Assembly (NCBI GenBank): GCA_008802785.1
Contig: VUYT01000008.1
Coordinates: forward strand, 558,001 to 622,000
Source: Symmetrospora coprosmae
Taxonomy: Eukaryota > Basidiomycota > Cystobasidiomycetes > Symmetrosporaceae
DNA: 64,000 nt
Reading direction: 5' to 3'
Shown here: positions 37,267 to 46,832 of the stretch, one piece after another
Position numbering within the stretch: position 1 is the stretch's first letter
How the letters are laid out: each line of letters starts with the position of its first letter
Notes under the pieces: generated by a model
What the model saw: only the letters and a program-made list of their open reading frames with translations
Database searches by the model: none
Told to the model about the DNA's origin: nothing
Position numbers and translations under genes: made by a program

Positions 37267-39293
37267 CTACTCGGCGACTGCCGCCGGTGTCGCTTTAACC
37301 TTCTTGGGCGCGAGGACTGTCGCCTCTTCCTCTTTGTCCTCCTCTGGCGCTTCCGCCGCGGCCTCCTTCTCAACCTTCCGCTTCTCGAGCTCGGCCTGCT
37401 CTCTCGACGCCAGCTCCTTCGCAACCCAACCCGGCATGGCCTGCACCGCCAGCTCTGGCTCCTTCTTGTAGCAGAGGAGCATGCCCTGCAGCTCGGCAAT
37501 GGTAAAGATTTCGTCCCCGACGCATCCGCTCCACTCTTTCGCCCAAGAAGCAATGTCGCGCTCGGTGATATGCCCGGGAAGCTCGAATGGGTGCAGCGGC
37601 ACGCGCTCGAGACCGATGTGGTGGTGGTGTTTGCTCGCAGCCGACACGGAGCTCTTCGTTCCCACTGAAGGCTTCTTCTCACTGTCCACGTCGTCGAGCA
37701 GCTCCTCGCCGCTGGGGGTGACCGTGTAGAAGCTGTTGAAGAGCTCTTCGGCCTGCGCGGTCGTAGCCCGCTTGTAGTGGACAAAGAGATCGACACGCCC
37801 TGGTCGAACGAGGGCTGCATCGAGGTCGTGCAGCGCATTCGTCGTGAGGAAGAGCAGGCGCCCCTCAGTCGCTTCCACCCCGTCGATGGCGTTGAGCATG
37901 GCCGAGAGCGAGATATTGCTCCCGCCGCCGCTGCCAGCCATGTAGCCGGGATACATGTGCACCGTGCCCCGCATCCCGCGCATGGGCATGGGGATCTGCG
38001 CAACCGCTGCCTGGTGCTGCTGGTATGCCTTCGCCTTTGCGTCCGCGCCGCCGGCAGCCTTATCGAGGTCGCGCTTCTGCGACGAGAACGACACGTCCAC
38101 GTCCTCCATGCACACGATTGAGCGCGCAGGGATGCTCCGCAGCGCATTCGAGAGGACGCTGTCGTTCATCGTCGGCGAGTTGATCCCGATAATGTACACG
38201 TCCAGCTTGATCTCGGACGCCAGCGCCTGGATCGTCGAGCTCTTGCCGGATCCTGGGCAGCCGTGCAGAAGATAGCCCTGTGTTGAAAGGCGGAAGGCTC
38301 AGTGTCGGCACAGCAGGCACCACTGCAAGCCCAACGCACCCTCTTCCACGCGATGCCCCGCTGATTGTACCACGCTTGGCTGCGCAGAAACTCCTGACAG
38401 TCCGCAAGCAGCTCGTCCCGCTTCTCTCCATCCATGATGATGCTCGACAATGGTCTTCGATGCCGGTGGCTGACGACCCTCCACGCTCCACGCTGATCGA
38501 GCACTTTCACAGTGACCATGGGCGCTTTGGTCTTGTCATAGACGTCTTTGGCCCTTTCGAGAAGCTGGAAGAGCGGCTGGCGGGTTAAGGAGTAACTGCG
38601 GACCGTAATGTAGGACGTGTCGGCGCCCTCGGGAGGGTAGCCGTACGCCGAGTTGCCCAATCCGAGGCTCTGGCGACGCCTGAAGTGGAAGAGCGTGCCT
38701 TGATTCCAGACTGGTTACAGAAGCGCAGGGTCAGCCAGCCGTCGTGATGGCGGGACCGTCGATAGCGAGCTTACTCCACTGGTCCGCATCTAGTGCGGGT
38801 GGACGTAGCAAGCGTCAGCGAAGGTTTCACTTTGCATGCACAGATTCTCGAGCTCCAAATGCACTCACTCTCCTTGGGAGCTAGACGCGTCTCGACCTCC
38901 TCCTCGTCTTTCTTGGTCTGCGGTACGTGAGCATCGTAGCTGCAGACCGTACGACCCCATTAGATGCGAGACGGACAGGTGGTCTTCAGCAATGAACCAC
39001 GCACATGCTCTGCACGCCGCCAAAAGCCCTGTGCATCCCGCGTTTCGTCCTCGTCTTCTGTCCCGTCTCGATGACAAAGTCGCGGCTGCGCTTCTTGAAG
39101 GCGCTCGAGTGCTCCCAGAATGCGAGTATCCAATCGTATGCCTCGTCGCTGGGCGAGAGCTGCGCATCAATGTAGAAGACTGTGTCGACGTGGACGAGCA
39201 TTACGCGTCGAGGAGCGGTCCGAGCGTCATGAGTGAGACGAGTGGAGTGGCAGTTAGGAGACAGGGAAAGAGAGAGAGACAGAGAGAAAGAGA

Positions 39294-39377
<84 letters not shown>

Positions 39378-39477
39378 NNNNNNNNNNNNNNNNNNNNNNN
39401 NNNNNNNNNNNNNNNNNNNNNNNNNNNNNNNNNNNNNNNNNNNNNNNNNNNNNNNNNNNNNNNNNNNNNNNNNNNNN

Positions 39478-39559
<82 letters not shown>

Positions 39560-39912
39560 CATCAGTGGGTGGAGGAGACACCTCACACCAGTTGCGCTGG
39601 GCCCTCACACTGCGTCACCGAGTCGACGACGCTGAACGACCGCCACAATCCACGGACACGCTCGAATGAGACGACGAGAGCCGCGAGCCAGAGGTATCTT
39701 CTGAGGAGGACGCGCAGCTGCTTTGAGCGGATGAGGCCGACGACGCCGAGCTGGTGGTACCCCTGTGCCACCGTGGTCGCGCTCTCGGTGAGCAGGCCGT
39801 GGAGCTGCGTCGAGAGGTAGTTGAGCAGGAGGAAGGCTCCCCCCATCTGGCCCATTCCCATTCCCATCCCTAGCGAGCTCATTGCTCCTCCTCCTCCTCG
39901 AGAGTACTGCAT
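37267..39912 (-). CDS. BCS1-like AAA ATPase (mitochondrial chaperone family)
   Basis: Six minus-strand exons, 39912-39609, 39179-39005, 38939-38869, 38789-38775 (15 nt), 38710-38340 and 38277-37267, give 648 residues. The N-terminus has a hydrophobic segment (GGAFLLLNYLSTQLHGLL), then RYLWLAALVVSFERVR. The BCS1-specific region has FFYIDAQLSPSDEAYDWILA and WNQGTLFHFRRRQS. The AAA module has Walker A HGCPGSGKSSTIQALA, Walker B RSIVCMEDVDVSF, sensor LLFLTTNALHDLDAALVRPG and an Arg-finger-like RPGRVD. Between Walker B and SAMLNAIDGVEATEG is an inserted Gln/Met/Gly-rich stretch (MPMRGMRGTVHMYPGYMAGS). The C-terminus is Lys/Glu-rich. BCS1 proper inserts the Rieske protein into complex III. Many basidiomycetes carry BCS1-like paralogues, and this divergent one with a long insert may be such a paralogue. 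Its first intron holds a GA microsatellite and an assembly gap. An alternative start is Met at 39882. Confidence 0.8.
38775..38789 (-). other. 15-nt micro-exon of the BCS1-like gene
   Basis: It is flanked by GCACTAG and GTAAGC on the minus strand. It carries ATGCGGACCAGTGGA and supplies NADQW plus one base. It is required to link APKE to IWNQGTLFHF in frame. Confidence 0.7.
39270..39557. repeat. (GA)n/(CT)n microsatellite inside the first intron of the BCS1-like gene
   Basis: An almost pure GA dinucleotide run from about 39270 to 39377 continues on the other side of a 100-N gap at 39478-39556. Read on the transcribed (minus) strand it is (CT)n, an extreme polypyrimidine tract within an intron. 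The true length is unknown because of the gap. Confidence 0.95.
39378..39477. other. Assembly gap (100 N)
   Basis: Exactly 100 unspecified bases, the conventional placeholder for a gap of unknown size. It falls in the middle of the GA repeat, so the assembly very probably broke on this repeat. Confidence 0.97.
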
Positions 39913-40886: not shown

Positions 40887-42662
40887 ATGAAGACATCTAC
40901 CGTCCTCCTCTCCTCTATCATCGCCGCCGGCGCCACGGGCGTCCAGGCCCGGCCCTTCTTCGGCAATCCCGTCGACCTCGCTCTGGACGGCCTGCTCGGC
41001 CGACGCGACCTCGATTCCACCCTCGGCAAGGTCGAGGACCACACTGCACACGGTCCGAAGGCGTCGATCGATCTTACGGGCGACAGCAAGGTCGAGCTGT
41101 CCGACGCTGGCAAGGCCGAGGTCAGCACCGCCGACAAGGCCGCTGTCAAGGTCTCAACTGGTAACGACCTATGCCTCGAGGTCCTCACCGATGGTGCCCT
41201 CACCCGAGACTGCAAGGTCAGCAAAGGCAAGATGGCCGACGAGACCCGCAAGGACATCGGCAAAGTCAAGACCGTCGCGCAGCAGAACGGCCTGCTGGTG
41301 AGGCGTCGCATCTTCCAGCGTATCAGCCGATATCTGCTGACAAATCCTCTCACTCTCTCGCAGCAGAAGCCACAGAACAGCAACACCAACCACAGCGGCG
41401 GCGGCGGCAGCGGCGGCGGCAATTCCCAGCACGCGCCGAGCAACGACTGCCATCCGACCAGCGAGGTTGAGGCCCTCCGCGCCAAGTACCTCGACACGCT
41501 CCTGCAGAACAAAAAGTTGCAGGAGGCCATCGTCGGGTACAAGCATCGCATGCTCGACTACGAGCACAAGATCTCGGAGTTTGCCTCGGAGGATCACAGC
41601 GTGACCATGGGCACCGAGACGGTCGGGCGCGTCCTCGCGGCGCGTAGCAGCAGGTCGAGCACTACCGACATCGACTACGACAGGCACCACCACGATTCTA
41701 ATACGGGCCACGATCACGATGACAGCTACCACTACTCGCACTCTGACCACCACGAGGACGACCGCCACCGCCAAGGCAATGACGAGCACCATCACCACGA
41801 CGACAGCAAGCCCGTCAAATCATCGGGAGGTCAGCGCCAGGGTAATGGCAGCGGCAATGGCAAGAAGCCCGGAAAGAAGCATCAAGGTGGCAACAACCAG
41901 AGGCCTCCCACACAGAACCGCACCAAAAATACCCGCCCTCAGCAGCAGCAGCAGCACTCCCAATCTCAGTCGTCTGACAAGGGGCAGGACTATCGCACCG
42001 GCAAGGCCGTTAAGAACGAGCTGCACCGCGACGGAAAGCAGACCGAGCAGGATCTGCGGACCGACTTGAAGTTCGCGCAGCAGGATGTGCAACACGGCGG
42101 CAAGGAGGTGCACCACGCACTCTCTGACGATGGCCGTGCCATCAAGGACAGCCGCACCGGCTCGCAGCTTCGCAAGGACGGCAAGCAGCTCAAGGGCGAC
42201 GCCATGCTGACCGGCAGCGATCTCGATGACGAGGTGCACCACTCTGGCAGCAAGCTCGACAAGGAGCTCCACCGCAACGCCAAGAACTTCGACGAGGAGT
42301 ACCAGTCGGACGCGCACAACTTTGACAAGGAGGTGCACCGCGGCGCGGCCGACCTCGAGAAGGAGATGCACCGCGATGGCGGGGAGCTGGACAAGGGCGC
42401 ACACGACCTCGGCTGGCAGGGCGACCAGCTTGCTCGGGCGCACGCGAGCGATGTCGATGACGACCTGCACGATGGAGGCAGGAAGGTCGACTACACTCTC
42501 CACGGCAAGGACGGCGGTGTCGACGACCCAGTCAAGGATAGCCTCTTTGTCGACCACGTCATCGAGGCTGTTGTTGGAGACAACGGCTCGAAGCAGCTCA
42601 AGCAGGAGGGCAAGACTCTCGACAAGGGCGTCAACAAGGCTGGGAAGGAAATTCTGGCTTGA
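40887..42662 (+). CDS. Secreted His-rich protein with about 15 undecapeptide repeats
   Basis: Two exons, 40887-41297 and 41364-42662, are split by a 66-nt intron (GTGAGG to CTCGCAG, CTGAC branch) that is in frame. They give 569 residues. A signal peptide (MKTSTVLLSSIIAAGATGVQ, then A) is followed by RPFFGNPVDLALDGLLGRRD, possibly a propeptide with a Kex2-like RR site. A Gly/Asn-rich linker and a coiled helix (EVEALRAKYLDTLLQNKKLQ) precede a His/Asp-rich block (DRHHHDSNTGHDHDDSYHYS). The last 230 residues are tandem 11-mers with an xxhDxEhHxxx pattern, for example GSKLDKELHRN, AHNFDKEVHRG, AADLEKEMHRD and ASDVDDDLHDG. Eleven-residue periodicity gives an amphipathic 11/3 helix, as in LEA group 3 proteins, apolipoproteins and synuclein. 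The gene lies alone with a long promoter. Function is unknown. Metal binding (His block) and membrane or desiccation protection (11-mers) are inferences. Confidence 0.8.
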   Translation: MKTSTVLLSSIIAAGATGVQARPFFGNPVDLALDGLLGRRDLDSTLGKVEDHTAHGPKASIDLTGDSKVELSDAGKAEVSTADKAAVKVSTGNDLCLEVLTDGALTRDCKVSKGKMADETRKDIGKVKTVAQQNGLLVRRRIFQRISRYLLTNPLTLSQQKPQNSNTNHSGGGGSGGGNSQHAPSNDCHPTSEVEALRAKYLDTLLQNKKLQEAIVGYKHRMLDYEHKISEFASEDHSVTMGTETVGRVLAARSSRSSTTDIDYDRHHHDSNTGHDHDDSYHYSHSDHHEDDRHRQGNDEHHHHDDSKPVKSSGGQRQGNGSGNGKKPGKKHQGGNNQRPPTQNRTKNTRPQQQQQHSQSQSSDKGQDYRTGKAVKNELHRDGKQTEQDLRTDLKFAQQDVQHGGKEVHHALSDDGRAIKDSRTGSQLRKDGKQLKGDAMLTGSDLDDEVHHSGSKLDKELHRNAKNFDEEYQSDAHNFDKEVHRGAADLEKEMHRDGGELDKGAHDLGWQGDQLARAHASDVDDDLHDGGRKVDYTLHGKDGGVDDPVKDSLFVDHVIEAVVGDNGSKQLKQEGKTLDKGVNKAGKEILA

Positions 42663-43147: not shown

Positions 43148-46100
43148 TCAGACACGTTGGTAGAAGAGGAGATAGGCTGATTTTTCGGGGACACCCCGCA
43201 AATTGCTCGCGCTCGGCAGGCTGAGGCGCATGTTTTCGCGGTCGCGGTCGACAACGACCTCCTCGACGGGAACGGGCGTGATGGTACTGTGTAGACAGAC
43301 GACGGAATGAGCATGTGTCTGTCATTTGTTGCATCTGTGGGCAGCAGTGGCACTCACGTATCGTCAATGTTGAGCCACCGCCCATTGTTCTGCCGCTGCA
43401 GGACCGTGTAGTGTCCTCCCGCTGCGGACTTGCCGTGGTGGAACACGACGCCGTTGAGCCTGTAGTGATTCTTGCGTGCCATTTGCGCCGAGGTGCGCTT
43501 GGCGGGTGCGAGGCAGTCCTTGGGCACCTCGAGCTCGGTGCCGTACGAGACGACCTTGTGAGACTTGAGCACGCCGCCCGCGCGAGAGTCATACACAAAG
43601 CGCTTCAGGTGCAGAATGAGCACGGGAGGCAGCGTGTCGATGAAGAGCTGCTTTGTCGCGTCTCCTTTGAGGTTGTTGCGGTTCGCCACATCGCTCAGTG
43701 TCTCGGGCTTTGAGATGAAGGAGAGGGCGTCTTCGATCGTGTACACATTCGGTTGCTAGGGTTGGCGGAAAAGGAGGAGAGAGACAGGACCGCGCATCAG
43801 CCCATCTGTGGCCACCCAACCGTTGCGGACTGCCTGGAACTCACCTCGATCTCAAGCTGCAAGCTCATGAAGGGTTCGAGCGTGACGCTGTCCTTTTGTC
43901 CCGGGCAGCGAAGGACGCTGCGCAGCTGCCCGCCGAAGATCTTGGTGATCGCCGACTCCTGGTGCTCGGTCGTGCGCGTGTTGGCCGTCCGGCCCTTCTG
44001 GCCGACCTCAAGCCACTCATCATCCTCTGCGCCCCCGTTGGCAGTGTTGCTAGCGCTGCGGACTGACGCGCTCGATGCACCAACAGCTGGCTGTTGCCCC
44101 GCGCCCGCAGGTGCGGTGATGGCGTCGTACGCCGCCGCGCTGTTGACGCTCTGCCGGGTTAAGCTGTCCATGCCCGCTCGGTAGCCCTTGCTCGCGCGCT
44201 CCCAGTTCTGCTTGTCGAACTGGTCGATCTTGATAAGGAGCTCTTCGTGGATCGTGTCGAGGAAGAAGCCGAGGAACTCTTGCGCGTCCTCCTGCGAGAG
44301 GTATCCGCCCGCCCCGTGTTGATGCTTGACCGACGGTGGCCGGTACACGTGCGAGCCTAATCCCGATCCCGCTCCCACCGCACTCCCGCTGCCGTATGCG
44401 CCGTTCGAGAGTGACGTACCCCTCGATGACGCCGACGACGGGTTCGCAAAGCCCATCTGGGCAAAGCGCGCATTCTTGTTCAGGGCGTGGTAGATGATGC
44501 TGGGGATGAAGGCGTCGTTGCGATTGAGCTCCTGCTCGTAGCTCTCGCCGCTGCGCAGCTGATGCTCATGCGCAGAGTCGTGCGTGCGGAACTCAGCCAG
44601 GTACGAGACCATGGCGTCGAGCAGCGGTGTTTTGCCGCTAAGGTCCTCGGCCGTGTTGCTGCCAATCAGGTTGATGAGGTTGTAAAAGGGTGCGGTGAAA
44701 AGCAAGGTCTGCAGGATCGAGTTCATGAAGCACGCATTGCCCGTGTTGACGAGGCCGCGCGGGTACAGGAGCACCGTCGAGCGCGAGTTCTCAACGCCTG
44801 CGAGAATCTCCTCGAGATTCTTCTTGCGCGACATGACGTTGCTGAAGAGCGCAGAGCCGCCCGTAGCGTTCGAAGCGAGTGAGCGCGTGTCGGTCGTGTC
44901 TTTGGCCGCCGCAGGCTGAGCGGCTGCCTCTGCGGATACCGGGACGGCAGCATCGCCAGTTCCCGTGCCAGACGGCCCTGCGGGCGGCGGCGACGAGTGT
45001 CTGGGGACCTTGTCGCTCACTGCCGTAGTGGAGGCCGGGGCTGTAGTGGCAGGGGAGGCCGCGGTGCCTGGCAGAGCGATGCTGACGCGCTTCTTCTTCG
45101 CCGCCTCGTTGGCAGCTTTCGCTTCCTGCTGCATCCTCTCCCTCTCGCTGACCTCCGTCTGCTCCTTGTCCCTTGCGCTGATCTCTGCGTCCGTCAGACC
45201 AATGTTCTTTACCGCCTGTTCGGCGAGCTGAACGTGGCTCATTGGTCGCACGAGGTCGGCCCACGAGCGTGCCTGCGCCTGGCTGTTCCCGCCCTTCATT
45301 GCAGACTTGGTGGGCTGCTTTGACGCTGCCGAAGGGGACGTGACGACGATGGTGTTGCCGGCCGTCAGGACGCCCGAGGGCTCGTGCTCCTGCCGCCACT
45401 CTGCGAGGTGCTCCTGGTCGATCTGCGTCGCTTTGCGCGACTGGCCCGTCACGACCGGCGCTGTAACGGTGAGCGGGGCGGACGGGGTGAAGAGCGTCGT
45501 CGACGGCGCTGGTGCCGGGTGCGGTTGGCCTGCCGAAGCTGACGAAGCGACCGTGACGAGGTTGTAGTCGTTGCTCCCGGCATTCCGGGACGTGTTCTCC
45601 TGCAGTGCTCGCTTATTCTCCATGACGCCCTCCTGCCCTGGGATCTTGCGAATGCCTGTGTGCGCATCACTTGGGGTGAATACCTTTGCCCGGCTGGACT
45701 TTGTGCTCGCTGCTCTGCTTCCTGCGACCGAGGCGATGGACCCGCTCGACTTGCGTGGCAGGGGGCCTCGACCCTGTCCGTATGGTATGTCGGGTATTGC
45801 GAGGCCCGAAGGCGGGCTGAGGCTGCTTCTGAACGTGACTGCTGGTGCGTCGAATGGATCGACAGGTGCCCGCTTTGACTGGGGCACCCTGCCGCTTCTC
45901 GAGCCATCTTGGCTCCCGTTGACAGAGGAAGGTGCTGCGGGCGCGGAACCGTTCGACAGCTTGTGCTGATGTGGAGATGTGAAGGAAGCGTGGGGGATGT
46001 CTGCCATTTGCTGGGACGGGCCGGGCAGCGGGGCGGGTATGGCGTCCTTTGTGGCGATGTAGGCTGGATGGGGGTGAGTGTGCGATGGATTTGTGGAGGA

Positions 46101-46412
46101 TTTGCTGCTTGTTAGCGAGGCATATTGTCTCGATGGCAAGCCTAGGTCGGAGGAGGCCGCTGTCGATTTTGAGGGATGTGTGGAGGCGTCCGTGGAGAGG
46201 CCTGAGAGTGCCCCTGGTGCGTGTTGTGGGGGAGGCTGTTGCTGCGATGAGGATGAGGATGATGTTGCCTGTATTGAGCCATTGTTGCTGGCTGTCATGA
46301 GCGTTGATGAGCCGGCCATGGCGTTGCTGCTGCTCGGCGTGCGCAGGCTGACCATGTTGGCGGGCGCGGAGAACTTGGCTGTGGTGGGCGGCGGGCGGCC
46401 ATTCGCGCGCAT
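43148..46412 (-). CDS. UBP3: Ubiquitin carboxyl-terminal hydrolase, USP10/Ubp3 family
   Basis: Three minus-strand exons, 46412-43845, 43755-43358 and 43286-43148, give 1,034 residues. The first 570 are disordered and Ser/Pro/Thr/Ala-rich. The catalytic domain starts LYPRGLVNTGNACFMNSILQ, with the active-site Cys in NACF. It has TPLLDAMVSYLAEFRTHD and GGYLSQEDAQEFLGFFLDTI, with a helical insert, then TLPPVLILHLKRFVYDS. The catalytic His is in HHGKSAAGGHYTVL and the acidic residue in RWLNIDDT; the chain ends SAYLLFYQRV. The Cys box resembles the USP10/Ubp3 type rather than the common NLGNTCYMNS. Yeast Ubp3 with Bre5 acts in secretion, ribophagy and stress-granule control. Start: Met at 46412 is the first ATG in the frame. 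An upstream exon ending SAQQTT with a GTGAGT donor does not keep the frame. It is divergent from NOP16. Confidence 0.88.
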
Positions 46413-46832
46413 GGACGAGGCAGTCGACGTCAGTCGCTCCTGCGTGCACGTTGATCCAGTATGCTTCAATCCATCACAGTCCACCTGCGACTCACGTAGT
46501 TTGTTGCGCTGAATCCACCGAGGGAGCAATCATGCGGGATCGGGGAGGGAGAGCATCGATATCAGCGGGACAGGCTGGCCGCAGCAAAGGAACGGGGGAC
46601 AAGGGCGCACCTCCTTCTTTGACGACACTTGCTGTTGAAACATGGGACGTGTGCGTAGGTGTCCTTCCCTGACTATGTCCTGCTCTGCTCTGCTCTCCTG
46701 GCTGGCTATGGCAGAGTGACGTCTCTCCCTCTCTCCCTCCGAGTGCGCTCCCTCGCTCCCTCGCTGCAGCGTGACCCTCTACCGTGCCGGGCTGCAGTAC
46801 TTGCAGCTGCTCTGCTCTGGTCCTCGCAGTGA

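Follow-up and report, generated by a model that had tools for sequence, protein, structure and literature searches.

An orphan, apparently secreted 11-residue repeat protein of Symmetrospora coprosmae with an inverted helical charge layout

Within a 64,000-nucleotide stretch of the Symmetrospora coprosmae genome (contig VUYT01000008.1, positions 558,001 to 622,000; hereafter the window) lies a gene that a preliminary description, made from the sequence without database searches, had read as encoding a secreted protein made of about 15 undecapeptide repeats, comparable to LEA group 3 proteins, apolipoproteins and synuclein but of no described fungal family. The locus thus raises the questions of whether such an array exists, what kind of helix it would form, whether it belongs to any of the known 11-mer proteins, and what a protein of this design might do outside a fungal cell. 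The features on which the answers rest are collected in Table 1.

Table 1. Features of the gene and its predicted product; positions are those of the window, residues those of the spliced protein.
Feature	Position	Strand	Basis
Whole gene, ATG to stop	40887..42662	+	ORF; 591 aa unspliced / 569 aa spliced
Probable signal peptide, residues 1-21, V-x-A before RP	40887..40949	+	sequence, hydropathy
Possible short propeptide, residues 22-40, ends GRR (Kex2-type site)	40950..41006	+	dibasic scan
Probable intron, 66 nt, phase 0, in frame	41298..41363	+	GTGAGG...CTGAC...CAG
Charged segment, helical-looking, residues 166-217	41448..41603	+	weak moment near heptad angle
His/Asp-rich block, residues 242-300	41676..41852	+	14 His, 11 Asp in 59 residues
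Repeat block A, four 11-residue units, residues 351-394	42003..42134	+	block B profile score
16-residue register slip (one unit + 5), residues 395-410	42135..42182	+	shifts register
Repeat block B, ten 11-residue units in one register, residues 411-520	42183..42512	+	periodicity, profile, AlphaFold2 helix 421-516
Degenerate tail in block B register, residues 521-569	42513..42659	+	unit 554-564 still recognisable

The codon-position GC of the open reading frame (0.66/0.39/0.83) fits a coding frame. The 66-nt stretch is probably an intron, judging from the intron consensus, and its removal would give the 569 residues that had been reported for the protein, a length which is that of the spliced form. 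Exon 1 also holds a weak 12-nt tandem repeat (41105-41151; 3.9 copies, 60% match). Upstream of the gene, frames at 39233-39608 read as RERERE/SLSLSL simple repeats around a run of N (39378-39477), probably a microsatellite interrupted by a gap in the assembly. The neighbours with Pfam matches are BCS1-like AAA, deubiquitinase and Nop16 genes and give no functional hint.

The N-terminal part looks like that of a secreted protein. The 19-residue hydropathy maximum of the whole protein falls on the putative signal peptide (1.23, against 0.59 for the best window beyond residue 40), which presumably obeys the V-x-A cleavage rule, and the RR at residues 39-40, a putative Kex2-type site, is the sole RR or KR that a dibasic scan finds in the spliced protein; a signal peptide followed by an RR site, as first described, is thus plausible. 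Two cysteines lie in the region 41-137 and a third at residue 166. The moment of residues 160-217 is not above that of shuffles (1536 of 2000 reach it), which counts against a helical segment at 166-217, and a Gln/Gly/Lys-rich linker separates the His/Asp-rich block from the repeat. The AlphaFold2 prediction for exon 1 (mean pLDDT 42.7) was uninformative.

The 11-residue array proved to be real, with both lag-11 identity and profile score far beyond those of shuffled sequences. In residues 331-569, identities at lags 11, 22, 33 and 44 number 49, 32, 35 and 28, which add up to 144, against an average of 67.3 (SD 7.7, maximum 97) for 5000 composition shuffles; no shuffle attains the lag-11 count at any lag from 5 to 44 (highest 38). 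Among the 138 stop-to-stop frames of at least 150 aa in the window, this frame ranks first for 11-residue periodicity (z 2.68), the next three (z 2.31, 2.18 and 1.93) coming from this same DNA read in antisense or shifted frames and the best unrelated frame reaching 1.51. A profile built from residues 411-520 only gives the four units at 351-394, two of which had been picked by the unit fit, 16.6 bits in register, a score reached by 0 of 5000 shuffles (-12.9 +/- 4.7). Single units score weakly against the profile: in a scan of residues 22-410 unit 351 alone stands out (11.0 bits, with the 99% level of shuffles at 11.2), and in a leave-one-out test four of the fitted units score only -1.7 to 1.4.

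The array is nevertheless less uniform than it had been described. Its start had been put at about residue 345, and the units are found from residue 351 (nt 42003). Consecutive units in one register do run from 411 to 564 as fourteen slots, of which roughly three have decayed (a weak one at 521-531 and degenerate sequence at 532-553), but the 16-residue slip breaks the succession between the two blocks. The unit at 554 is the top tail match to the block B profile, at 4.0 bits, which is inside the range of shuffled sequences. Since the array makes up about 40% of the protein, the protein is not "made of" repeats.

Unit columns were counted over 14 of the 18 slots, the four tail slots being left out, with units cut by register rather than by a MAFFT alignment of three-unit segments, which was misregistered. 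Position 3 is hydrophobic in 12 of the 14 units and position 7 in all 14; positions 4 and 6 are each acidic in 10, position 8 is His in 8, and position 11 is Gly in 8 and Ala in 4. The recurring pattern xxhDxEhHxxx of the preliminary description holds in its strict form, hDx[DE]hH, for 4 units and in a looser form for 7, but not for every unit. At the DNA level a 33-nt spacing is visible across the array, and Tandem Repeats Finder at score 30 does not report it, which suggests that the repeats are old. Mismatch between units at the three codon positions is 0.53/0.44/0.59, position 2 being the most conserved, a contrast too small for proof of selection.

The hydrophobic positions follow a particular helical geometry. 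The hydrophobic moment has its maximum at 98.5 degrees both in residues 351-399 and in 411-530, where it is reached by 1 and 0 of 2000 shuffles, respectively, and this angle corresponds to about three turns per 11 residues. At the heptad angle the moment is 0.026 in 411-530 and 0.231 in the short 351-399. Residues 351-569 taken as one piece give a weaker peak at 97.5 degrees because the slip and the tail are then included. The amphipathic 11-mer helix geometry first proposed is thereby borne out as a 3-11 helix, and the hydrophobic 11-residue periodicity of hendecad coiled coils is present in the same peak. The 3-11 angle is described for apolipoproteins, synucleins and perilipins in excerpts of PMC6164224 and PMC5889406. 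AlphaFold2, run on the repeat fragment as a single sequence, predicts helices at 345-399 and 421-516 (mean pLDDT 66.5, pTM 0.28, block-mean pLDDT 51-86), a model that is consistent with the 3-11 geometry but short of proof. With glycine as residue 11 of 8 out of 14 units, a continuous helix is weakened.

Charged residues are unevenly placed around this helical wheel. Over the same 14 slots, the positions flanking the hydrophobic stripe (4, 6, 8 and 10) carry 25 D/E, 5 K/R and 10 His, and those at the polar centre (1, 2, 5 and 9) carry 11 D/E, 17 K/R and 4 His; the layout of acidic flanks and basic centre gives P = 0.0003 by within-unit permutation (20000 permutations). Register-free windows (n=87, overlapping) place 82% of K/R at the centre and 69% of D/E on the flanks. 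Apolipoproteins have basic residues beside the hydrophobic stripe and acidic ones at the polar centre. Likewise, a figure legend in PMC6164224 gives Hsp12 basic flanks and an acidic polar centre. Against a layout of this type, with basic boundary and acidic centre, the repeat shows the opposite at the same P = 0.0003.

Two further sets of loci in this genome allow a comparison. On the minus strand at G000:C5:405942-406052 (L011) lies a second 11-mer protein, Ala/Lys/Glu-rich and LEA-like, in whose open frame lag-11 identity is 73 against a mean of 42 and a hydrophobic segment comes next in the same frame. A search of the genome for LEA_4 (PF02987) gave a match on this contig only, at L011, with 16.8 bits, below the cut-off of 51.1. 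At the threshold of 0.2 used for the repeat, L011 has 0.75 of K/R on the flanks and 0.25 at the centre, and 0.57 and 0.34 of D/E (11 windows); at a lax threshold (63 windows) the values are 0.46 and 0.31 for K/R and 0.47 and 0.44 for D/E. Three HSP12 matches (L017-L019) lie adjacent within 0.7 kb at G000:C14:121841-122547, one with an internal TAG. In 18-residue windows, L018 alone leans to acid at the centre (0.65), with K/R at 0.33 on the flanks versus 0.41 at the centre, L017 has acid at the flanks (0.72), and L019 yields 3 windows only, so that the published Hsp12 layout is not cleanly reproduced by the three. The charge inversion is thus firm for the repeat protein itself and only partly calibrated against other proteins.

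Searches for relatives returned none. With the whole unspliced ORF, including 22 intron codons, as query, a protein database search found no match at E <= 10 among the 7988 candidates that shared most words with the query and were scored, and ORF residues 365-591 found none among 1240, in a search that relies on shared 5-residue words and may miss a fast-evolving repeat protein. Residues 430-910 of the neighbouring deubiquitinase served as a positive control: of 7994 candidates scored, 70 matched at E <= 0.001, and 11 of these show 47-64% identity across 97-98%. The lineage thus appears to be represented in the database, at any rate where a protein is conserved. The best match from a named species was Parajaminaea phylloscopi (39% over 68%); the deubiquitinase (43800-46529, minus strand) is USP10-like by its named relatives and the lineage apparently poorly sampled. 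Exon 1, the repeat, and the His block with the repeat, searched against the own genome, found the gene itself only and, within the reach of such a search, no paralogue. Prokaryote genomes and viral contigs gave no match and NCBIfam no significant one, both weak negatives for collections that are not meant for fungi and a library of prokaryotes. Pfam at E <= 1 gave no LEA_4, no HRXXH and nothing significant for the ORF, and the C-terminal part at E <= 10 again no LEA_4, in a search whose HMMER filters drop most weak matches. Two PDB sequence matches (E 1.6 and 2) were taken as chance. A match to Nbl1_Borealin_N (E 0.012, 15.6 bits vs a cut-off of 24.4) was discarded as a short helix match. The family model of the exchangeable apolipoproteins (PF01442) was likewise not matched (E 0.022, 14.9 bits vs a cut-off of 90). 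Among openly licensed papers retrieved with terms aimed at secreted fungal 11-mer proteins, some of these terms rather narrow, no title or abstract beginning describes such a protein. Within the reach of these searches, the lack of a known family suggested at the outset stands.

How, then, does the protein relate to known 11-mer and desiccation proteins? LEA group 3 proteins (LEA_4) share its hydrophilic 11-residue tandem units, of which they typically have 5 to 24 according to an excerpt of PMC3296651, but the fungal protein differs in lacking a LEA_4 match, in being rich in His and Asp, in its apparent secretion and in its basic polar centre. The hydrophilins, among them Sip18, Gre1 and Hsp12, are a class by composition, defined numerically in the same excerpt by Gly above 6% and a hydropathy below -1; residues 22-569 have 10.9% Gly and a GRAVY of -1.22 and fall within that class, to which the protein adds an apparent signal peptide and the 11-mer array. 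The analogy to LEA proteins thus survives in the sense of "works like", through the 11-mers and the hydrophilin composition, and fails as membership of the LEA_4 family. Taken together, the protein is an apparently secreted orphan whose 11-mers carry an inverted charge code, a variant of the known 11-mer proteins.

As to function, we tentatively favour a secreted hydrophilin in which drying or acidification would induce long helices outside the cell, a reading which is possible rather than probable. The protein would enter the secretory pathway and lose its signal peptide, the short propeptide would probably be cut off at Gly-Arg-Arg, and the product would act outside the cell, where its C-terminal units would be mostly disordered and soluble in water. 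Withdrawal of water or a falling pH might then trigger folding into long straight helices of 11 residues per three turns, whose narrow stripe (positions 3, 7 and 11) would be buried by packing of helix against helix or against the cell surface. By wheel arithmetic, one flank of the stripe would carry Asp4 and His8 and the other Glu/Asp6 and sometimes Asp10. Because of these acidic flanks neighbouring helices would repel each other at neutral pH; self-association might be allowed where acids pair with protonated His at low pH or are linked to His by a bound metal. In the end a protective matrix or wall coat would form, LEA- or Hsp12-like in function but located outside the cell. There is precedent for a hydrophilin outside the membrane, since an excerpt of PMC10146344 places Sip18, Gre1 and Hsp12 in the yeast spore wall and reports wall defects in mutants, and tardigrades secrete drying proteins of their own, SAHS, of another fold (excerpt of PMC7640644); with the composition and the acid/His flanks, these parallels make the secreted hydrophilin the best of the accounts considered. 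On the other hand, the genome has ordinary candidates for drying, the LEA-like 11-mer protein and the HSP12 matches, which count against this reading, as do the glycine at position 11 and the weaker moment over the whole of 351-569.

The main rival, somewhat unlikely in our judgement, is that the protein is a secreted metal binder, in which the His/Asp block and the pairs Asp4-x3-His8 would take zinc, copper or another metal, for extracellular scavenging or detoxification, and in which helix folding would be driven by the metal. The 14 His and 11 Asp within the 59 residues 242-300 speak for it, as do the 8 units out of 14 with His at position 8 and the 8 occurrences of [DE]xxxH in residues 351-530, against a shuffle mean of 3.2 and with 16 of 5000 shuffles reaching 8, though this excess is partly a consequence of the repeat itself. 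Against it, the genome already has HRXXH domain matches at two loci, and HRXXH (PF13933) is the Pra1 zincophore family. Pra1 is conserved in most fungi according to an excerpt of PMC12663325. The HRXXH matches (L012-L016) lie at G000:C62:25226-25854 and C33:530188-530921. It further counts against metal binding that, of the 20 neighbouring frames scanned, 6 have Pfam matches and none of these is a metal transporter.

A structural hendecad coiled coil, in which the repeats would build a stable oligomeric stalk within the cell wall or capsule around a core of positions 3, 7 and 11, seems quite unlikely. The moment at 98.5 degrees and the long predicted helix 421-516 agree with it, and a His/Asp flank could pair with a Glu/Asp flank between parallel helices. 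A stable core is however poorly served by the frequent glycine at position 11 (8 of 14 units), by a hydrophobic fraction of 0.28 and by acid facing acid at neutral pH.

Comparison with lipid-binding helices makes improbable a third reading, in which the repeat would bind extracellular lipid or an air-water surface through its helix, in the manner of perilipins, apolipoproteins or synucleins. Over residues 411-520, 33-residue windows give a mean moment of 0.318, a hydrophobic fraction of 0.28 and a charged fraction of 0.39, and the net charge is -13 over the 110 residues. In Table 1 of PMC5889406, moment and hydrophobic fraction are 0.257/0.35 for Plin4, 0.30/0.47 for alpha-synuclein, 0.35/0.37 for Plin3 and 0.39/0.40 for apolipoprotein A-I, and the lowest hydrophobic fraction among the nine rows is 0.32; with a Heliquest-like calculation whose windows may differ from those of the table, the amphipathicity of the repeat is thus in range, close to that of alpha-synuclein and Plin3, and its hydrophobicity under all rows. 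The helices of Perilipin-4, apolipoprotein A-I and alpha-synuclein share the 3-11 geometry and the moment range with the fungal repeat, but the latter is less hydrophobic, net negative and acidic at the flanks, where Hsp12 is basic (PMC6164224, figure legend), and has no significant Pfam match; the weak Apolipoprotein match noted above, slight evidence in favour, is far below its cut-off. A membrane helix of the apolipoprotein or synuclein type, to which the first reading had likened the units, is thus not supported, given the inverted charges, a hydrophobic fraction lower than in any row of that table, and the net negative charge.

A signal peptide, repeats and a lack of relatives are common among effectors. 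That the protein is a secreted effector on these grounds, or a Kex2-cut polyprotein like the secreted smut repeat proteins Rep1, Hum3 and Rsp1, is very improbable. Apparent secretion and repeats it would share with the latter, but its single RR lies ahead of the mature protein with no RR or KR between the 11-residue units, while those smut proteins have longer units (34-55, 31-36, and 18 or 21 residues, respectively) with Kex2 sites largely between them, as an excerpt of PMC4617103 has it.

Returning to the hydrophilin that would fold outside the cell, a wider and unlikely proposal is that the protein stands for an unrecognised class of secreted fungal 11-mers, in which acid and His would replace Lys at the boundary of the stripe, keeping the helices soluble at neutral pH and letting them assemble extracellularly upon acidification, metal binding or drying, as a LEA counterpart whose charge code is inverted. 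LEA group 3 proteins, perilipins, apolipoproteins and synucleins, the helical 11-mer proteins used for comparison, work on lipids or in cells that are drying. If the proposal is true, the same geometry with the opposite charge layout would mean that an 11-residue helix can be adapted to extracellular work, and the protein would make a small system for testing how the position of charges determines what triggers folding, be it lipid, water loss, pH or metal. The orphan gene further illustrates that some of what fungi secrete still goes without a name in family libraries.
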